Position numbers and translations under genes: made by a program. A DNA stretch of 64,000 nt, taken from the NCBI RefSeq assembly GCF_011405515.1, contig NZ_AP022671.1, forward strand, positions 1,612,001-1,676,000. The letters are read 5' to 3'. This DNA is from Nitrospira sp. KM1. Lineage in GTDB: Bacteria > Nitrospirota > Nitrospiria > Nitrospirales > Nitrospiraceae. This document shows, piece by piece, positions 21,714 to 30,377 of the stretch. The number at the start of each line of letters is the position of its first letter. Position 1 is the first letter of the stretch. The notes beneath the pieces were generated by a model. That model saw only the letters and a program-made list of their open reading frames with translations, was not told where the DNA came from and searched no databases.

Positions 21714-23210
21714 CTATTTCGGATTGACCGCGACGAACAGATTGTTCCCCTGCCGGCTGAGGAGGAGAACCGCCAGCTCCTCCTTCTTAATTTTGGTGGC
21801 GGCCTTTTGATAGTCGTCCAGATTCTTTACCACTTCATGATTCACTTCCTGGATAATGTCGCCGCGCTGGATGCCGGCAGCCTCGGCGGCCCCACCCGGT
21901 TCGACACCGGAGACGACGACTCCGGCGGTCTTCGCCGGGATATTGAGCTGGCCCATCACCGCGCTGTCCAACGGCTGAACTTTGAGAGAGGCGAGCACAT
22001 TATCTGGCGGCTTGATCGTCTCTCCCTGTTCCTTGGAAGGCGCTGCCTCTTTTTTGGCAAGCATTTCATCGGACGGGCGTTCGGCAACCTTGATATTGAG
22101 CGTCTGTTCTTTGCCGTCGCGCAAGATTTTGACCTGCGCGTCTTTACCGACGACGGTCCGGGCGACCAGATTTCGTAACTGGCTGACGTTCTGCACCTCT
22201 TTTCCGTTGAACGCGACGACGACATCACCGCGTTTCACACCAGCCGCGAAGGACGGACCGTTCTCATTCACATCGCTGATCAGCACGCCCTTGCGCTGCT
22301 CGGGCAATTTGAACGATTTGGCCAGAGCGGGCGTAATCTCCTGGATCGCCACCCCCATCCATCCCCGTACCACTTTGCCGGTCTTCTGCAGGCTGTCGAC
22401 GATATCCAAGGCGATGCTGCTGGGAATCGCGAATCCAATTCCCTCCGAGCCGCCGGTGCGCGAAAAAATGGCTGTATTGATGCCGATCAAATCCCCGTTC
22501 ATGTTGACCAGCGCTCCCCCCGAGTTACCGGGATTAATCGCAGCATCGGTCTGGATGAAATCTTCATAATCGGCGATCCCGACATTCCCTCGTCCGAGCG
22601 CACTGATAATGCCGAGGGTCACCGTCGAACTCAAACCAAAAGGACTTCCAATCGCCAAGACCAGATCACCGACCTGCAATTTGTCATATTCAGCCCACTT
22701 AACGGATGGAAGATCCTTGGCATCGATTTTCACGACCGCCAGGTCGGTTTTCGGGTCGGTACCCACAACCTTGGCGGAAAATTCTCTCCGGTCACTCAAG
22801 GTCACCGTAATTTGGGTCGCCCCTTCGACGACGTGGTTATTGGTCACGATGAACCCGTTCGCATCGAGAATGACTCCGGATCCTGCGCTTTGATCAGGGC
22901 GTCCATGTGGACCAGGCGGCATCGGAGGAGGAGTAGGCAATTCGCCGCCACCGGGAGGTTCGTCACCACCGCCCCCAGGAGGTCCACCGAACGGCCCCGG
23001 GGGAAGCGGCCTTCTGCCGCGCCCACCCTCTCCACCGCCGGTAACGGCAATATTGACCACCGCCGGCGTGACTTTTTTCACAATGTCCGAAAACCCCTGC
23101 GCCATGGCAGGCGGGACCCCCGCGGCGAGCGCGTCCGGCCAGACAGGAAGTAGGCTGAGTAGAAATATGATCGCAAGAAGACTCGTACAGACCTTGCTCC
23201 ACTTCACCAT
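21714..23210 (-). CDS. Do/HtrA-family periplasmic serine protease
   Basis: 498 aa from ATG 23210, supported by GGAGGAAT eight bases upstream; the longer frame to 23408 is unsupported. Signal peptide, then a Gly/Pro-rich linker of about 50 residues, then the trypsin-like domain with catalytic His (NNHVVEG), Asp (KTDLAVVK) and Ser (PGNSGGA), then two PDZ domains. Envelope protein quality control. The Gly/Pro linker between signal and protease domain is unusually long. Confidence 0.92.
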   Translation of the reverse strand: MVKWSKVCTSLLAIIFLLSLLPVWPDALAAGVPPAMAQGFSDIVKKVTPAVVNIAVTGGGEGGRGRRPLPPGPFGGPPGGGGDEPPGGGELPTPPPMPPGPHGRPDQSAGSGVILDANGFIVTNNHVVEGATQITVTLSDRREFSAKVVGTDPKTDLAVVKIDAKDLPSVKWAEYDKLQVGDLVLAIGSPFGLSSTVTLGIISALGRGNVGIADYEDFIQTDAAINPGNSGGALVNMNGDLIGINTAIFSRTGGSEGIGFAIPSSIALDIVDSLQKTGKVVRGWMGVAIQEITPALAKSFKLPEQRKGVLISDVNENGPSFAAGVKRGDVVVAFNGKEVQNVSQLRNLVARTVVGKDAQVKILRDGKEQTLNIKVAERPSDEMLAKKEAAPSKEQGETIKPPDNVLASLKVQPLDSAVMGQLNIPAKTAGVVVSGVEPGGAAEAAGIQRGDIIQEVNHEVVKNLDDYQKAATKIKKEELAVLLLSRQGNNLFVAVNPK

Positions 23211-23356
23211 GGCCAGATTCCTCCAGAATGTTAAAGACGATCTCAAGATGAATTCGTATTCTACACTATCCTTTTCGATGCCTTCAAAGACAAATAGACC
23301 CTCCGGCTTCGCACGGAGACGCAGCCTGCGACACATGACGCATTGGGAAACAGGGC

Positions 23357-24142
23357 CTAGGAACGGCTTCGCTGCGCCGCTGTGGCTTCCTCCAGTTCCG
23401 AGAGCCATGAATGCTGGAGTTTGGAAGCCAGCCGTTTCTCGGCCTGCTCGAAAGATACAACCCGCAGGGTGTTGGGCGCTCCTTCATAGGTCGGGGGCCA
23501 GATGCGCCGTTCGGGGTCTTGGGGCCGCAGGTAGACGACCGGATACCATTGATTGATATCGGGAGCGGTCGGCCGATCAAGGGTCGCCCATCCCCTGCCT
23601 TCCGCCTGCAGGAGTGTCTTGTTGTCTTTCAAATCCAAAAGAGCCAGTTCCAACAATGACCAGTTGTCACGCCGGTACCCCGGTTGAGCGTGTGTCGTCC
23701 AACCCAAAAATACCGTGACCGGATATTCCTGCTCGGTGCTGGACACGACCACGACCACAAGATACTCGAGTCGTCGTTGCCGCGCGAGATCGGTAAACTG
23801 CTGCCAATCGCCGTTCGGCTGCGGTCGAATGTGATCGGCCGGTACGATTTCCTTGATCATCACCGGAAGAGCGCGTTCGATGTCCTGTTTGAGATTTTCC
23901 CCCAGTCGGACCAACGCTTCATCTGGCAAGTTTGGCGCAGCCCCCGCCTCAGAAGTATCAGACACCAATACGAGCCCGGCCTGAATGGGCCGTGGTTCGA
24001 CGTTCAATAGAGATTCGGCTCCGCTTGCCCGATCCGAAGAAACGTAGTCGCCTATTCGCGTTGGGGGGACGTCTGAGGCGCAGGAAACGAGTAGACTGAA
24101 CCCGCCGAGAATGCCTATCGTTCGAAGCAAGTGGCGCATCAC
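23357..24142 (-). CDS. putative lipoprotein
   Basis: 261 aa with a lipobox LVSC at about residue 21. GGGAGGTGAG precedes the start; ATG 24142 and ATG 24139 are both possible. Soluble alpha/beta body with LEYLVVVVVSS and repeated Trp-Pro motifs; no catalytic residues recognised. It lies 146 bp upstream of htrA on the same strand, so possibly co-regulated with envelope stress functions. Confidence 0.6.
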   Translation of the reverse strand: MMRHLLRTIGILGGFSLLVSCASDVPPTRIGDYVSSDRASGAESLLNVEPRPIQAGLVLVSDTSEAGAAPNLPDEALVRLGENLKQDIERALPVMIKEIVPADHIRPQPNGDWQQFTDLARQRRLEYLVVVVVSSTEQEYPVTVFLGWTTHAQPGYRRDNWSLLELALLDLKDNKTLLQAEGRGWATLDRPTAPDINQWYPVVYLRPQDPERRIWPPTYEGAPNTLRVVSFEQAEKRLASKLQHSWLSELEEATAAQRSRS

Positions 24143-25160: not shown

Positions 25161-26697
25161 CCGGCATCCTTACCTCCGACAGCAGCGAATAGATCGAAAC
25201 CTTCTCGTCTTCATACATTTTCTTCCATTCGGGCTCGCGTGCTAATGCCGCATCCAAAAGGGTGTCGCGTCGAACCACTGCCCAATCGACGGCATATTTG
25301 TCCAGCACCGCCAATCCGGCGGTCGTACCTGCCGTGAGCGCCATGTAATCTTCAAAGATCCTGCGCTTCCCCACATGCCAGGCCGGCATCCGCCCATCGA
25401 TGAAAATCTTTTCGTTCGGCAACCACCAGAGCAGAAACCCGCCATACTGATAATCGTTATAGAGACGTTGTCCCAGGTTTGCGCGGTGCGATTGAATCCA
25501 ATCGACGGCTTCAATTGGGTAAGACGTTCGATGAAAAAATTGCTTCGGATACCGGCCCGATTCGACTACATGCCGGAGATGGTCCGGACCCAACCATAGG
25601 ATGAACAGACCCGTCACCATGGTAACGGCCGCGATAGACCACCTATCACGTTGACGGTCGGCGATCACGAACGATCGCAGCTGTTGAAGACCGGCGGTAA
25701 CCAACTCGGCGCAGAGTGAAAGACTCAGGAGAAGAAAGAGTGGGATATTCCGCATGTGCCGCCACGACAACATGAGAAATATGCCTAAAAGGAACCAGCG
25801 GACTGGTTCAACGCGGCGATACCACAAGAGCATCCCGGCAGTGAGACCGCCCAGATACCATACGAAACTCCGGCCCGCGACTGAATCGATTGCCGGTGGT
25901 TGCCATTCCTGTAAGGTCGCCAACATGAATTGGTCCGAGAGCGAGGACAATATTTCTTCGTACAGACGCCACCCATAAGGATTGATGAAGGTGACGAGAA
26001 TGGAGATCCCTAGAACGATAGACAGCCGTATCAGGCTTGCCTTCGAAGGAACCGCTTCGTCCAGACGAACCGCCAATTTTGAGTTTCGAGTGACGATCCA
26101 CCGCATGAAGGATGATGCGCCCGCGTAGAGCCCCAGGAGAAAGATCCCGGCAAGAAATCCACCGTGGAGATTACTCCATAGGAGAAACAAGCATGGGATC
26201 CCCCAGTAGGTGGATGCCTCGGACCAAGTTGAAAGCATCCGAAGCAGCAATGCGAGGCCGAGGAGGGAAATCAATTGAGTTCTGGCTCCCAAGTACGGCA
26301 GCGCGGTCCAGAGAGATAAGACGCAGGCCATATAACGGCCGGCAGGCAGACTTGCTGTGAGATCGGCCGCTAGCATCCATGCACCGGCGGTGACGGCTCC
26401 GAACAGGATAATGACCCCGAGACCCCCGCTGTGGTCGTACACAATGCCTATCAGGATGTCCGACAGCCATGCGTGCTCCACCCAGGGCCAGTCGGGCATG
26501 GTGTGCGAATAAGGATCGACCGGCGGCGGGAGGAATCCGCGGCTCATGAGATCCAACCCGGTGCGCAGATGCCAGCCGAAATCCGGCTCGGTCAACGGTT
26601 GCAGAACGAAATTCAGCACGATCACGCCGAGGAGGAGCAGCAGAGGAGTCGCCCGCAAAGAACGATCGGACGCTCCTTCGATCGCGGGCCGCTTCAT
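25150..26697 (-). CDS. polytopic membrane protein, possible GT-C type glycosyltransferase
   Basis: 515 aa with about ten membrane helices. A periplasmic loop near the N-terminus has EPDFGWHLRTG and PYSHTMPDWPWVEHAWL, a pattern seen in GT-C-like membrane proteins that use lipid-linked sugars. The C-terminal soluble part ends with a DGRMPAWHV segment. It overlaps the carbamoyltransferase stop by ATGA (26694-26697), so both are translated together. Catalytic residues not proven. Confidence 0.65.
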   Translation of the reverse strand: MKRPAIEGASDRSLRATPLLLLLGVIVLNFVLQPLTEPDFGWHLRTGLDLMSRGFLPPPVDPYSHTMPDWPWVEHAWLSDILIGIVYDHSGGLGVIILFGAVTAGAWMLAADLTASLPAGRYMACVLSLWTALPYLGARTQLISLLGLALLLRMLSTWSEASTYWGIPCLFLLWSNLHGGFLAGIFLLGLYAGASSFMRWIVTRNSKLAVRLDEAVPSKASLIRLSIVLGISILVTFINPYGWRLYEEILSSLSDQFMLATLQEWQPPAIDSVAGRSFVWYLGGLTAGMLLWYRRVEPVRWFLLGIFLMLSWRHMRNIPLFLLLSLSLCAELVTAGLQQLRSFVIADRQRDRWSIAAVTMVTGLFILWLGPDHLRHVVESGRYPKQFFHRTSYPIEAVDWIQSHRANLGQRLYNDYQYGGFLLWWLPNEKIFIDGRMPAWHVGKRRIFEDYMALTAGTTAGLAVLDKYAVDWAVVRRDTLLDAALAREPEWKKMYEDEKVSIYSLLSEVRMPVTY

Positions 26698-28448
26698 CCG
26701 ACGCGATGAACCAGAGGCCGTGAGGCCAGCAGATTGCCCATGACTAACCAGTCGACATCAGTGCGTAGGAAACAGCGAACCGCGTCCGCCGGCGTACAGA
26801 CAATCGGCTCGTTGACATTGAATGAAGTGTTGAGGAGGACAGGAACTCCTGTGCGCCGGTCGAATGCTTCGAGAAGCGCCCGATATCGCGGATTCGACTC
26901 ATCCACTGTTTGGACTCTTGCAGTCCCGTCCACGTGGAGGACTGCTGGAATCGACCCTTTGGCGGCTGCCAGGACCGGCGCAGTGAACGCCATAAATGGC
27001 GATGGACACGGAAGATCGAAAAATTCGTGAACCCGTTCCTTCAGCACGGAGGGCGCGAACGGACGAAATGGTTCACGAAGTTTGACCTTGGCATTGATCA
27101 GTGCCCTCATGTCCTCTCGGCGAGGATCCGCGAGCAGGCTTCGGTTTCCCAAAGCTCTCGGTCCCCATTCCATCCGGCCCTGAAACCAGCAGACCAGCCG
27201 CCCATTGGCAAGTTCACCGGCCACCTTGTCGAAGAGCATGTCGTCCGGAAGGTGCTCAATACAAAGACCGGCTCCTTCCAATTCGCGGCGGCATACGGCA
27301 TCATCGTACTCGGGTCCCCAGGCTGCTGACTTCATGGGCGTGCGGTCGGCGTCCGCTCCGCGCCGGCTGCTCAACCATAGCGCCGCCCCAAGTGCAGCCC
27401 CGGAATCTCCCGCCGCGGGTGGAACATACACCTCACGAAATCCGGCTTCCCGGAATATCCGTGAATTCGCGACGCAGTTGTACGCCACGCCACCGACAAG
27501 ACAAAGCCTGTCGTCGCGAGTCGAGGCCTTCAGGTGGCGCGCGAGATGCAACAACGTATTTTCAATGACCAGTTGTGCACTGGCTGCCATGTCGCGATGG
27601 CGCTGAGTCACATCTTCACCCGGTAACCTCGCGGGACCGAACAGATCGACGAACTGTCGGACAAAAATACGTTCTCGTGCGAGATGAAAATCCAATAGTC
27701 CCGTGTTGAGCTGAAACGCTCCGTCGGGCAAGAGCTTGAGCACTTCAGATCCGAGTTGCCGGGCAAAGAGAGGCTCGCCGTAAGCGGCCAGGCCCATCAC
27801 AATATATTCGTCCTGGTCGGGCTTGAATCCCAGATAGGCAGTGATCGCGGCATAGAATTGTCCGAGCGAATGCGGCAGTCGTACCCGTTTGAGTATGTCA
27901 ATGCGACGTGGACCAGCCCGAGCCAGCGTGGTCGTATGAGCCTCGGATGCACCGTCGGCCACGAGCACCGCGGAAGAATCGAACGGGGCGGTGAGCACGG
28001 CGCTGGCCGCATGGCAAATATGATGATCGAGAAAGACGGGAGCCGGACTGTGCGTGCCGTCGATCCGATTCGACAGCGTCCGCCGCAGAAGTGCGAGTTC
28101 CTTCCACTCGACGGACCGCTCGGCGCTCCTCTTTCCCTTCACCAGAAACAGTTGGGGAGACCGCAGCATGGAGCCGACGGCGAGACCCACCCGTCGGCCG
28201 ATCTGCCAGAATTTCCACGGCACCGCCACAGCATCGAGGTCGCAAAGTCGCACGCCTGCCTGTTGCAAACAATACCGGATTGCTCCTACCGGCAAGGCGG
28301 TGACATGCTTGGTCCGTGCGAACCGCTCTTCTTCCGCCGCGGCAATGATCCGGCCGTTGTCCACCAGAGCCGCCGCTGCGTCACGCATGTTCGACAAACC
28401 CAAGACGACCATCCGCGGTAGGATAGAGGAGCCGGAATGCTCTGACAA
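26694..28448 (-). CDS. NodU/CmcH-family O-carbamoyltransferase
   Basis: 584 aa. An N-terminal YrdC/Kae1-like part with HHICHAASA (metal ligands) and VLVADGASEAHTT, then a C-terminal domain with YNCVANSRIF, GDSGAALGAAL and ALGNRSLLADPR. Such enzymes use carbamoyl phosphate and ATP to carbamoylate hydroxyl groups on sugars or antibiotics. Next to a polytopic membrane protein and a GT2 enzyme, it may decorate a surface glycan or glycolipid (inference). Confidence 0.88.
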   Translation of the reverse strand: MSEHSGSSILPRMVVLGLSNMRDAAAALVDNGRIIAAAEEERFARTKHVTALPVGAIRYCLQQAGVRLCDLDAVAVPWKFWQIGRRVGLAVGSMLRSPQLFLVKGKRSAERSVEWKELALLRRTLSNRIDGTHSPAPVFLDHHICHAASAVLTAPFDSSAVLVADGASEAHTTTLARAGPRRIDILKRVRLPHSLGQFYAAITAYLGFKPDQDEYIVMGLAAYGEPLFARQLGSEVLKLLPDGAFQLNTGLLDFHLARERIFVRQFVDLFGPARLPGEDVTQRHRDMAASAQLVIENTLLHLARHLKASTRDDRLCLVGGVAYNCVANSRIFREAGFREVYVPPAAGDSGAALGAALWLSSRRGADADRTPMKSAAWGPEYDDAVCRRELEGAGLCIEHLPDDMLFDKVAGELANGRLVCWFQGRMEWGPRALGNRSLLADPRREDMRALINAKVKLREPFRPFAPSVLKERVHEFFDLPCPSPFMAFTAPVLAAAKGSIPAVLHVDGTARVQTVDESNPRYRALLEAFDRRTGVPVLLNTSFNVNEPIVCTPADAVRCFLRTDVDWLVMGNLLASRPLVHRVG

Positions 28449-28544
28449 GTTGCTTTCAGCCAGTGATTCCGGTACGGTTGGTGACCTTCCATGCTGACAG
28501 GCCGGTGTATCGTTCGGGCTAGAATCAGGACATCCTCTCCCTTT

Positions 28545-30377
28545 ATGAATGCCTGGCGTCTCACGCTCATTCTCGGCGGGTTTGTCTGGTACGGCTGTGC
28601 AAGCCAGGTCGAGCTGCCCAATCTCGGGCCTCGTCTCTCCCAGACGGCTTCACTCGAATTATCCAAGTCATTGACTGAAGCGACAGTCGAATATGCCGAT
28701 AATTGCGGCCATCTCCAAATTTTTGATATCGGCACCCCTCTGGAGGATGCCCTGGTCGAAACGGCGAACCGAACTTTCAAAACGGTGGTTTTGCCGGGAT
28801 CCAGCGCAAAGCCTGACGTCATGGTACATGTCAAACTGGTCCAAAATTCGTTCGTTCTTCGAATGGACGGTCTGTATGACAGGGCACCGACGGAACTGCA
28901 ACTCGGGGGTCTCGTCTCCTATACCGACCAGGCCGGCAATCTGATCGGGGAGCAAGACATCCAGGTGATGTGGAAGGACCGGGTCCGCATCGAACCCATG
29001 CAAAAGAATTGCGATTATGTGCTGGCTCCCTTCGTTCGGAACGCCGCCCGGGAATTTGCCCTCAGGTTTTCCGAAGGAGCCAGAAGCAAGCTCGACTCGG
29101 GGCGCGCACCAATCGCCCCGGGGCAGCTCGAAACCGTCAAGCCCACCGCGGCAACAGCCGCGGCAACGGGAGCGGTCGCGGCGACAGGCCTGGCTGCGAC
29201 ATCCGCATCGGCAATTTCGTTCAAAGCGACCCTGTTGGATGAAAATAGCAATCTGATCCTCGAAGGGGGTGAGCGGATTCGCGTGCGCGTCGATGTCGTC
29301 AATACAGGAGATCAGGAATTACAGCGCGCGGCCGCGACCATCAGCGGCACCCCGTCGCTCACTGCCCAGTTTCCAGCCACGACTCTGTCCGTGGGCCGGC
29401 TACAGCCAGGACAATCCCGGTCGCTCGAATTTGCCGCGACGCTTCCCCAATCCGTGCAGCCTCAGAAAGGTGAGATTCATGTCACGGTCGCAGACCCGGC
29501 CGTCCCATCGCCACCTTCTCAACTCCTTAGTTTGACGATTCAACCGACAGGCATGAAAACCGACGACGTGGACCATGTGCCCGCCGCGGCGGACGGATTC
29601 AGACGGCCTCAGACCTATCTGTTGTCGATCGGAGTCGGTTCCTATCGCGACCAACAGCTGTCCACGAGAAAATACGGCGCGTCCGATGCTGAAATGGTGG
29701 CCACCTATTTTCAGTCTTTAGGGGGCATACCTGCCTCAAACGTTCGTCTGCTCCAGGACTGGAAAGCATTGCGACCCGATATCGATGAAGCTTTGTTGGA
29801 TTGGTTGCCAGGCCGTGTGACCAAGGATTCAGTCGTCCTGATCTATTTCGCCGGATCCGCCGCGGTCGGCCCGTCTGGTGATGTGTTCTTGATTCCCTAC
29901 GACGGCAGTCTGTCTACCACGTCGAGAGCCTACCCATTGAAAGACCTCGAAGCCGCACTGGGCCGATTGAAAGCAAAGCAGACGATTTTATTTTTCGATG
30001 GAACGGTATTTCGGTTTGGATCTGAAACGAAAGGGAAACCCGCGGCGCCCCTCTGGCATCCACCCGGCAGCGGGACGACAAAGGTCATTGCAATCAATGG
30101 ATTGGGGCGTGCGCTCGAAGACGAAAAACACCGACATGGGTTGTTTACGTATTATCTGTTGCGCGCGCTGAGGGGAGACTCCGATACGAACAGGGATGCC
30201 GAAGTCACACTTGGAGAAACTATCGCCTATGTCAGTCAAAAAGTGCTGTGGGCCTCGAAGACACAGTATAGCCAAGAACAGCGCCCAATCACGACTCCGC
30301 CCATGAAACCCACCGATACTGCCGGTGCACTGATATTGTCCAGACTGGCGGCCATCAAATCGGTCGAAACGCCTTGA
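28545..30377 (+). CDS. lipoprotein with catalytically dead caspase-like domain
   Basis: 610 aa from ATG 28545; the signal peptide ends in a lipobox WYGC. Residues about 20-180 are a lipoprotein beta domain, followed by an Ala-rich linker and a CARDB/Ig-like domain (about 225-340). Residues 350-550 fit the Peptidase_C14 (caspase) fold: LLSIGVGSYRD, DAEMVATYFQSLGG, DSVVLIYFAG. The expected GHG His is replaced (YFAGSAAV) and the LDACxSG Cys is replaced (FFDGTVFRFG), so no dyad remains. Probably a scaffold rather than a protease. Confidence 0.75.
   Translation: MNAWRLTLILGGFVWYGCASQVELPNLGPRLSQTASLELSKSLTEATVEYADNCGHLQIFDIGTPLEDALVETANRTFKTVVLPGSSAKPDVMVHVKLVQNSFVLRMDGLYDRAPTELQLGGLVSYTDQAGNLIGEQDIQVMWKDRVRIEPMQKNCDYVLAPFVRNAAREFALRFSEGARSKLDSGRAPIAPGQLETVKPTAATAAATGAVAATGLAATSASAISFKATLLDENSNLILEGGERIRVRVDVVNTGDQELQRAAATISGTPSLTAQFPATTLSVGRLQPGQSRSLEFAATLPQSVQPQKGEIHVTVADPAVPSPPSQLLSLTIQPTGMKTDDVDHVPAAADGFRRPQTYLLSIGVGSYRDQQLSTRKYGASDAEMVATYFQSLGGIPASNVRLLQDWKALRPDIDEALLDWLPGRVTKDSVVLIYFAGSAAVGPSGDVFLIPYDGSLSTTSRAYPLKDLEAALGRLKAKQTILFFDGTVFRFGSETKGKPAAPLWHPPGSGTTKVIAINGLGRALEDEKHRHGLFTYYLLRALRGDSDTNRDAEVTLGETIAYVSQKVLWASKTQYSQEQRPITTPPMKPTDTAGALILSRLAAIKSVETP

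Follow-up and report, generated by a model that had tools for sequence, protein, structure and literature searches.

The locus described here raises the question of what a caspase fold may do in an exported protein once both of its catalytic residues are gone. The gene lies on the forward strand at 28545-30377 of the window, by which we mean the whole 64,000-nucleotide stretch of the Nitrospira sp. KM1 chromosome that was analyzed, and it encodes 610 amino acids plus a stop. Translation of 28545-30374 gives 610 codons free of internal stops, with the stop codon at 30375-30377; an upstream in-frame ATG at 28491 would give 628 amino acids, and the numbering used here, including that of Cys18, runs from the ATG at 28545. 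Along the protein, with all features on the forward strand, there follow a signal peptide with lipobox Cys18 (28545-28598, Cys codon 28596-28598), an N-terminal domain with a fold like that of LptE, CsgG and PqiC (residues 18-190, 28596-29114, from AlphaFold2 and fold search), an Ig-like domain (about residues 223-340, 29211-29564), and a pseudo-caspase domain (about residues 352-604, 29598-30356, from Pfam, NCBIfam, AlphaFold2, and fold search). The Ig-like domain appears as a series of beta strands in the AlphaFold2 model and is weakly matched in Pfam, with CARDB in 17 of 27 orthologues and NPCBM_assoc in 16 of 27 at E 0.1. For the full-length model, built from 58 aligned sequences, mean pLDDT is 87.0 and pTM only 0.55, so that the relative arrangement of the domains is not fixed by it.

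Structure comparison bears out the claim, made in an earlier note on this DNA, that the caspase fold is kept. In a fold search with the AlphaFold2 model, residues 352-604 resemble solved metacaspases, paracaspases, and caspases with Z up to 21.1, reached with metacaspase 4 (rmsd 3.4 over 221 residues), and further matches include MALT1 (Z about 20), Geobacter GSU0716 (3bij, Z 19.4), legumains, and caspases. Profile matches point the same way at lower strength. Peptidase_C14 (PF00656) matches residues 361-582 at E 3.1e-4, its 20.9 bits falling just below the curated 21.4, and NCBIfam NF047832 matches residues 362-567 at E 2e-10, its 40.5 bits lying far below the cutoff of 140. PF00656 is also matched by 20 of the 27 rows of orthologue set A1 at E 0.1, with a best value of 5.3e-9. 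Searches by sequence found no solved structure at E up to 1 (protein) or 0.1 (profile) and no match in PHROGs at E 0.1, and plasmid records gave two weak partial matches, from Rhizobium and Runella.

Both catalytic residues are lost in the way that had been read from the letters. Gly437-Ser438-Ala439 (GSA) aligns with the Gly-His-Gly of intact relatives and Asp485-Gly486-Thr487 (DGT) with their Asp-Ser/Ala-Cys, which places Ser438 (codon 29856-29858) at the catalytic His position and Thr487 (codon 30003-30005) at that of the catalytic Cys. Of the features of an active family C14 peptidase, the caspase fold is present and the His-Cys dyad absent; the p20 fold with a substituted dyad is as in pseudo-orthocaspases. 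We scanned the species genomes of GTDB, confirmed 112 loci, and aligned the best 80 of them with the window protein; these 80 come from records titled Nitrospira, Nitrospiraceae, Nitrospirae, or Nitrospirota, with N. moscoviensis and Ca. N. defluvii among them. Whether all orthologues lack the dyad had been named as a check, and they do so without exception for Cys, found at the nucleophile position in 0/81 of these rows and in 0/71 family rows from relatives (a partly overlapping set that leaves out L003 and L004, other caspase-family proteins, from 73 aligned rows), and only in part for His, which is retained in 6/81 and 7/71. The His position is occupied by Q 48, L 23, H 6, V 3, and S 1, the Cys position by residues that include I 19, M 17, T 13, K 11, A 9, and S 6, and the two together drift through 18 combinations in the 81 rows. 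A shifted active site was sought as a Cys anywhere across residues 355-600 and was rejected, such a Cys being absent in 80/81 rows. Rows of clade B, sister to the clade A of the window protein, carry one or two Cys per caspase domain, both of those in the KM1 representative (L002) lying far downstream of the site; here Arg stands at the His position in 20/22 rows, and Ser (16/22) or Thr (6/22) at the Cys position.

Matches to the window protein were obtained in 57 of 61 genomes, KM1 and 60 relatives; in family f4, three genomes gave nothing and a fourth gave a weak match alone. In three genomes (G016, G024, and G035) the query has 18, 18, and 13 matches, which fall for the most part in the caspase domain, and those sampled are mostly intact. 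The other caspase-family rows number 26 once two duplicates are removed from 28; 23 of them have both dyad residues and 3 do not. In a tree of 97 caspase domains, a branch supported at 100/99 separates the 73 pseudo-caspase rows from the 23 intact relatives, among which one inactive protein (L004) also falls. A single loss of the dyad in the common ancestor of the family would most simply account for this pattern, a reading short of proven because the tree is without an outgroup root and has several long branches.

The N-terminal domain is restricted in its distribution. Its profile matches 75 of the 245 genomes of the phylum that were searched, all of them in the family of KM1 or in f3, another family of its order, with no matching genome beyond the order; family f2, also of this order, has full-length members as well. 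Most Nitrospiraceae genomes give two matches each in this search, and KM1 gives two, both pseudo-caspases: the window gene (clade A) and L002 (clade B). The second full-length pseudo-caspase lipoprotein of KM1 (L214, 3049-4986) is 29% identical and has Arg and Ser at the catalytic positions; genes near it resemble, by eye, a UbiA-type prenyltransferase and a c-type cytochrome. As far as the sequences searched indicate, the architecture with a pseudo-caspase is confined to Nitrospirales, usually as two paralogues.

Modeled alone with AlphaFold2 (64 sequences), the N-terminal domain reaches pLDDT 87.8 and pTM 0.84, and it matches XCC0632 (DUF330) at Z 12.2, CsgG at Z 11.1, and LptE at about Z 10, followed by weaker matches to PelC (9.3) and E. 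coli PqiC (8.4), the listed Z extending down to about 8. The best rows are mostly envelope lipoproteins; the top match is distant, with 9% identity at Z 12.2, and function is not fixed by the fold. Pfam gave no match to the LptE, CsgG, or PqiC sequence families in the window protein or its orthologues, and the likeness to LptE, CsgG, PqiC (DUF330), and PelC lies in a distantly matched fold and a lipid anchor. We know of no lipoprotein of these four kinds with a caspase domain. A role as replacement for LptE was considered and rejected, since LptE (PF04390, 39.6 bits) and LptD (PF04453, 94.4 bits) families are present elsewhere in the genome; CsgG-family genes also occur elsewhere in it.

The description of the protein as a lipoprotein stands, as Cys18 is present in 79/79 rows that cover the position, though the WYG preceding it in the window protein makes for an atypical, noncanonical lipobox (WYGC). 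From the signal sequence and the conserved Cys18 we infer export and lipidation. The outer-membrane location that had been proposed does not hold up in the same way: the residue at +2, after Cys18, varies over the 79 rows (E 32, A 18, V 12, D 10, T 5, and Q 2), so that there is no single conserved sorting signal to decide between inner and outer membrane. The +2 sorting rule for lipoproteins is that of E. coli and may not apply in this host. Close to both position 54 and position 156, a Cys is present in 28/30 clade A rows (the two others both missing the N-terminal domain), in 6/6 of f2, and in 13/13 of f3; in clade B, Cys54 is found in 20/22 and Cys156 in 19/22, the misses being truncated, undetermined, or badly aligned starts. 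A Cys54-Cys156 disulfide in the N-terminal domain is possible and would fit an exported protein.

Loss of the dyad has not been accompanied by decay of the domain around it. By the Nei-Gojobori method, over 385 pairs with dS of 0.1-1.2 (382 pairs for the N-terminal domain) that share branches and hence are nonindependent, median dN/dS is 0.138 for the pseudo-caspase domain (range 0.059-0.313), 0.176 for the N-terminal domain, 0.171 for the Ig-like domain, and 0.171 for the whole protein. Judged from these codon comparisons, the dead caspase domain is the most constrained of the three and is under purifying selection. Gly437, Gly486, Asp381, His531, Trp504, and Gln579 are invariant in 81/81 rows, and Asp485 is Asp in 79/81 and Glu in 2; the catalytic positions are variable in this alignment, and adjacent residues are not.

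Two of the retained residues suggest a substrate-binding pocket. By motif, Asp381 (codon 29685-29687) and Asp485 (codon 29997-29999) would be the counterparts of Asp95 and Asp211, given as the S1 residues of Trypanosoma brucei MCA2 in the available text of PMC4357240 and PMC6426788, because the spacing to the dyad corresponds. Both acids are present in 23/23 intact rows, 30/30 of clade A, and 6/6 of f2, while clade B has Asp381 in 22/22 and Asp485 in 20/22, with Glu in the other 2; for clades A, B, and f2 pooled, the counts are 58/58 for Asp381 and 56/58 for Asp485, with Glu in 2. Group f3, whose alignment is weaker around Asp381, has this residue in 5/15 and Asp485 in 14/15. An acidic S1 pocket thus appears to be kept in the subfamily of the window protein and two sister groups, as judged from alignment and not from coordinates, and its function would not be family-wide, since f3 is mostly without Asp381.

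A retained noncatalytic role is the best inference from a dyad that is gone, a fold that is kept, a loss that is shared, and a domain under purifying selection. It had been suggested that selection acts for binding rather than cleavage; the lost dyad, its shared loss, and the constraint fit a noncatalytic role, and binding is the simplest form that such a role might take. With moderate confidence, we favor a lipid-anchored envelope protein of Nitrospirales in which the N-terminal domain serves as anchor and the dead caspase domain as a noncutting binding module. The LptE/CsgG/PqiC-like domain would secure the protein to the envelope, with the Ig-like domain as a spacer between it and the pseudo-caspase. 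The caspase domain, whose His-Cys dyad was in the simplest case lost in the common ancestor of the family, would bind without cutting, probably in the cell envelope. In the subfamily of the window protein, the most likely ligand would be a stretch of a partner protein that bears Lys or Arg, because the acidic S1 pocket is retained there.

The partner might itself be a caspase. Eight proteins of the KM1 genome belong to the caspase family, the dyad being intact in five of them, and by hydropathy all eight start with a hydrophobic, signal-like stretch, so that the whole set is likely to be exported. One caspase-like protein of KM1 that lacks the Cys (L004, 895-2292) keeps the His, has Ala at the Cys position, belongs to a separate branch, and shows TPR-like repeats by eye. 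Intact caspases of the same genomes, such as L003/L177 and L176, resemble the window protein in the domain, the two S1 acids, and mostly His531 and Gln579, and differ in that the dyad is present (23 distinct rows). A precedent for regulation comes from human c-FLIP(L), a pseudo-caspase whose dead domain is kept by selection, as here, and which, unlike the Nitrospira protein as we picture it, is cytosolic, where it pairs with caspase-8. By analogy, the window protein may both pair with and control an intact caspase that its own cell exports; Arg at the His position in 20/22 clade B rows is the substitution carried by c-FLIP at its catalytic His position. Against this, the intact caspases lie elsewhere on the chromosome and outside the pseudo-caspase branch, and pairing among caspases cannot be assumed, since, in the accessible portion of PMC4357240, some family C14 members dimerize for activation and other clan CD peptidases are monomeric. 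We consider such a regulator unlikely. A broader version, in which a vertically inherited pair of dead caspases, lipid-anchored and seated on LptE/CsgG-like domains, would recognize Lys/Arg segments of envelope proteins or of intact caspases and gate their cleavage as a periplasmic counterpart of c-FLIP, is speculative and still less probable.

The domain may alternatively be a structural remnant, retained for folding or stability while the N-terminal domain does the work. The drift of the catalytic positions through 18 combinations and an N-terminal domain with the fold of working envelope lipoproteins are compatible with this, but among the three domains median dN/dS is lowest in the pseudo-caspase, whose Trp504, His531, and Gln579 are invariant, so that we think a mere remnant distinctly improbable. 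An enzyme with another nucleophile or other chemistry, for which Thr (13/81) and Ser (6/81) at the Cys position, or Ser in 16 and Thr in 6 of the 22 clade B rows, could be cited, is highly improbable, as this site is mostly hydrophobic or charged in the clade of the window protein (I 19, M 17, K 11, and A 9 of 81), the His position has no conserved base, and the invariant His531 is no special replacement because it is found also in 22/23 intact relatives. The noncutting binding module remains the reading that we prefer.

In kind, the protein belongs with known bacterial pseudo-caspases, and an earlier expectation of novelty may hold only for its architecture. Trypanosoma brucei metacaspase 4 is reportedly a pseudopeptidase with a biological role, alike as a caspase-family pseudopeptidase and unlike in being eukaryotic. 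Bacterial examples are in print: in the text available to us, an intact dyad is given for 84% of bacterial caspase homologues overall and 57% in Nitrospirae (PMC3501461, 2012), 90% of pseudo-orthocaspases are placed in Alphaproteobacteria and Cyanobacteria, with Nitrospira unmentioned in the accessible part of that paper (PMC6426788, 2019), and deletion of SyOC in Synechocystis is described as raising oxidative stress tolerance (PMC7889975, 2021). As far as these sources could be consulted, pseudo-orthocaspases (PMC6426788; SyOC, PMC7889975) share with the window protein a p20 with the dyad replaced and S1 acids kept, the acidic S1 pocket being retained in the cyanobacterial ones as well (PMC6426788), and the TAT-signal export proposed for some of them (PMC6426788) is a likeness to our probably exported protein. 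They differ in typically having Tyr-Ser and similar pairs, where the Nitrospirales family has Gln, Leu, or Ser with Ile, Met, Thr, Lys, and others, and those in the available text of PMC6426788 are unlike a lipoprotein with LptE/CsgG-like and Ig-like domains. The combination of a lipid-anchored LptE/CsgG/PqiC-like domain, an Ig-like domain, and a pseudo-caspase was not found in the literature searched, which covered few subscription journals, and this envelope-lipoprotein architecture is distinct.

The genomic setting is that of a conserved chromosomal neighborhood, not of a mobile element. On one side lies a divergent NodU-type carbamoyltransferase (Carbam_trans_N and _C; 26694-28448, reverse strand). 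The gene was recognized in 20 of 21 regions compared, the ORF picker having missed it in L090, and in 16 of these 20 the carbamoyltransferase directly adjoins it. In L083, L087, and L091 no carbamoyltransferase was recognized next to the gene, and L074 ends there, so that an obligate carbamoylation link was rejected; as this neighbor is frequent, not constant, we claim no shared pathway. The other flank holds a cytochrome c, a RodZ-like protein, and a TPR lipoprotein, and further genes there are presumably a PfkB-type kinase and MTAP-, MiaA-, and MutL-like genes. A trypsin-like protease with PDZ domains (21717-23408, reverse strand) also lies within the conserved region. Just upstream of the gene, at 28450-28478 on the forward strand, is a conserved promoter-like element that reads TTGCWTTC-N9-TTYCNGTACSGT. 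This pattern, built from the orthologue loci themselves, occurs once in the 4.5-Mb genome; it is exact in 41 of 80 named loci and present in a looser form in 69 of 79. A related TTGCA...GGTAGGTT is found for several of the f3 orthologues, as is TTTTCGGTATAA for some genes of clade B.

If the binding role is true, the protein would offer a testable case of a caspase fold turned into a noncutting module of the envelope, and such a module would have been kept across much of an order known for nitrite oxidation. It may likewise provide an entry point to the role of the many exported caspases, and to the question of whether dead partners regulate bacterial caspases.
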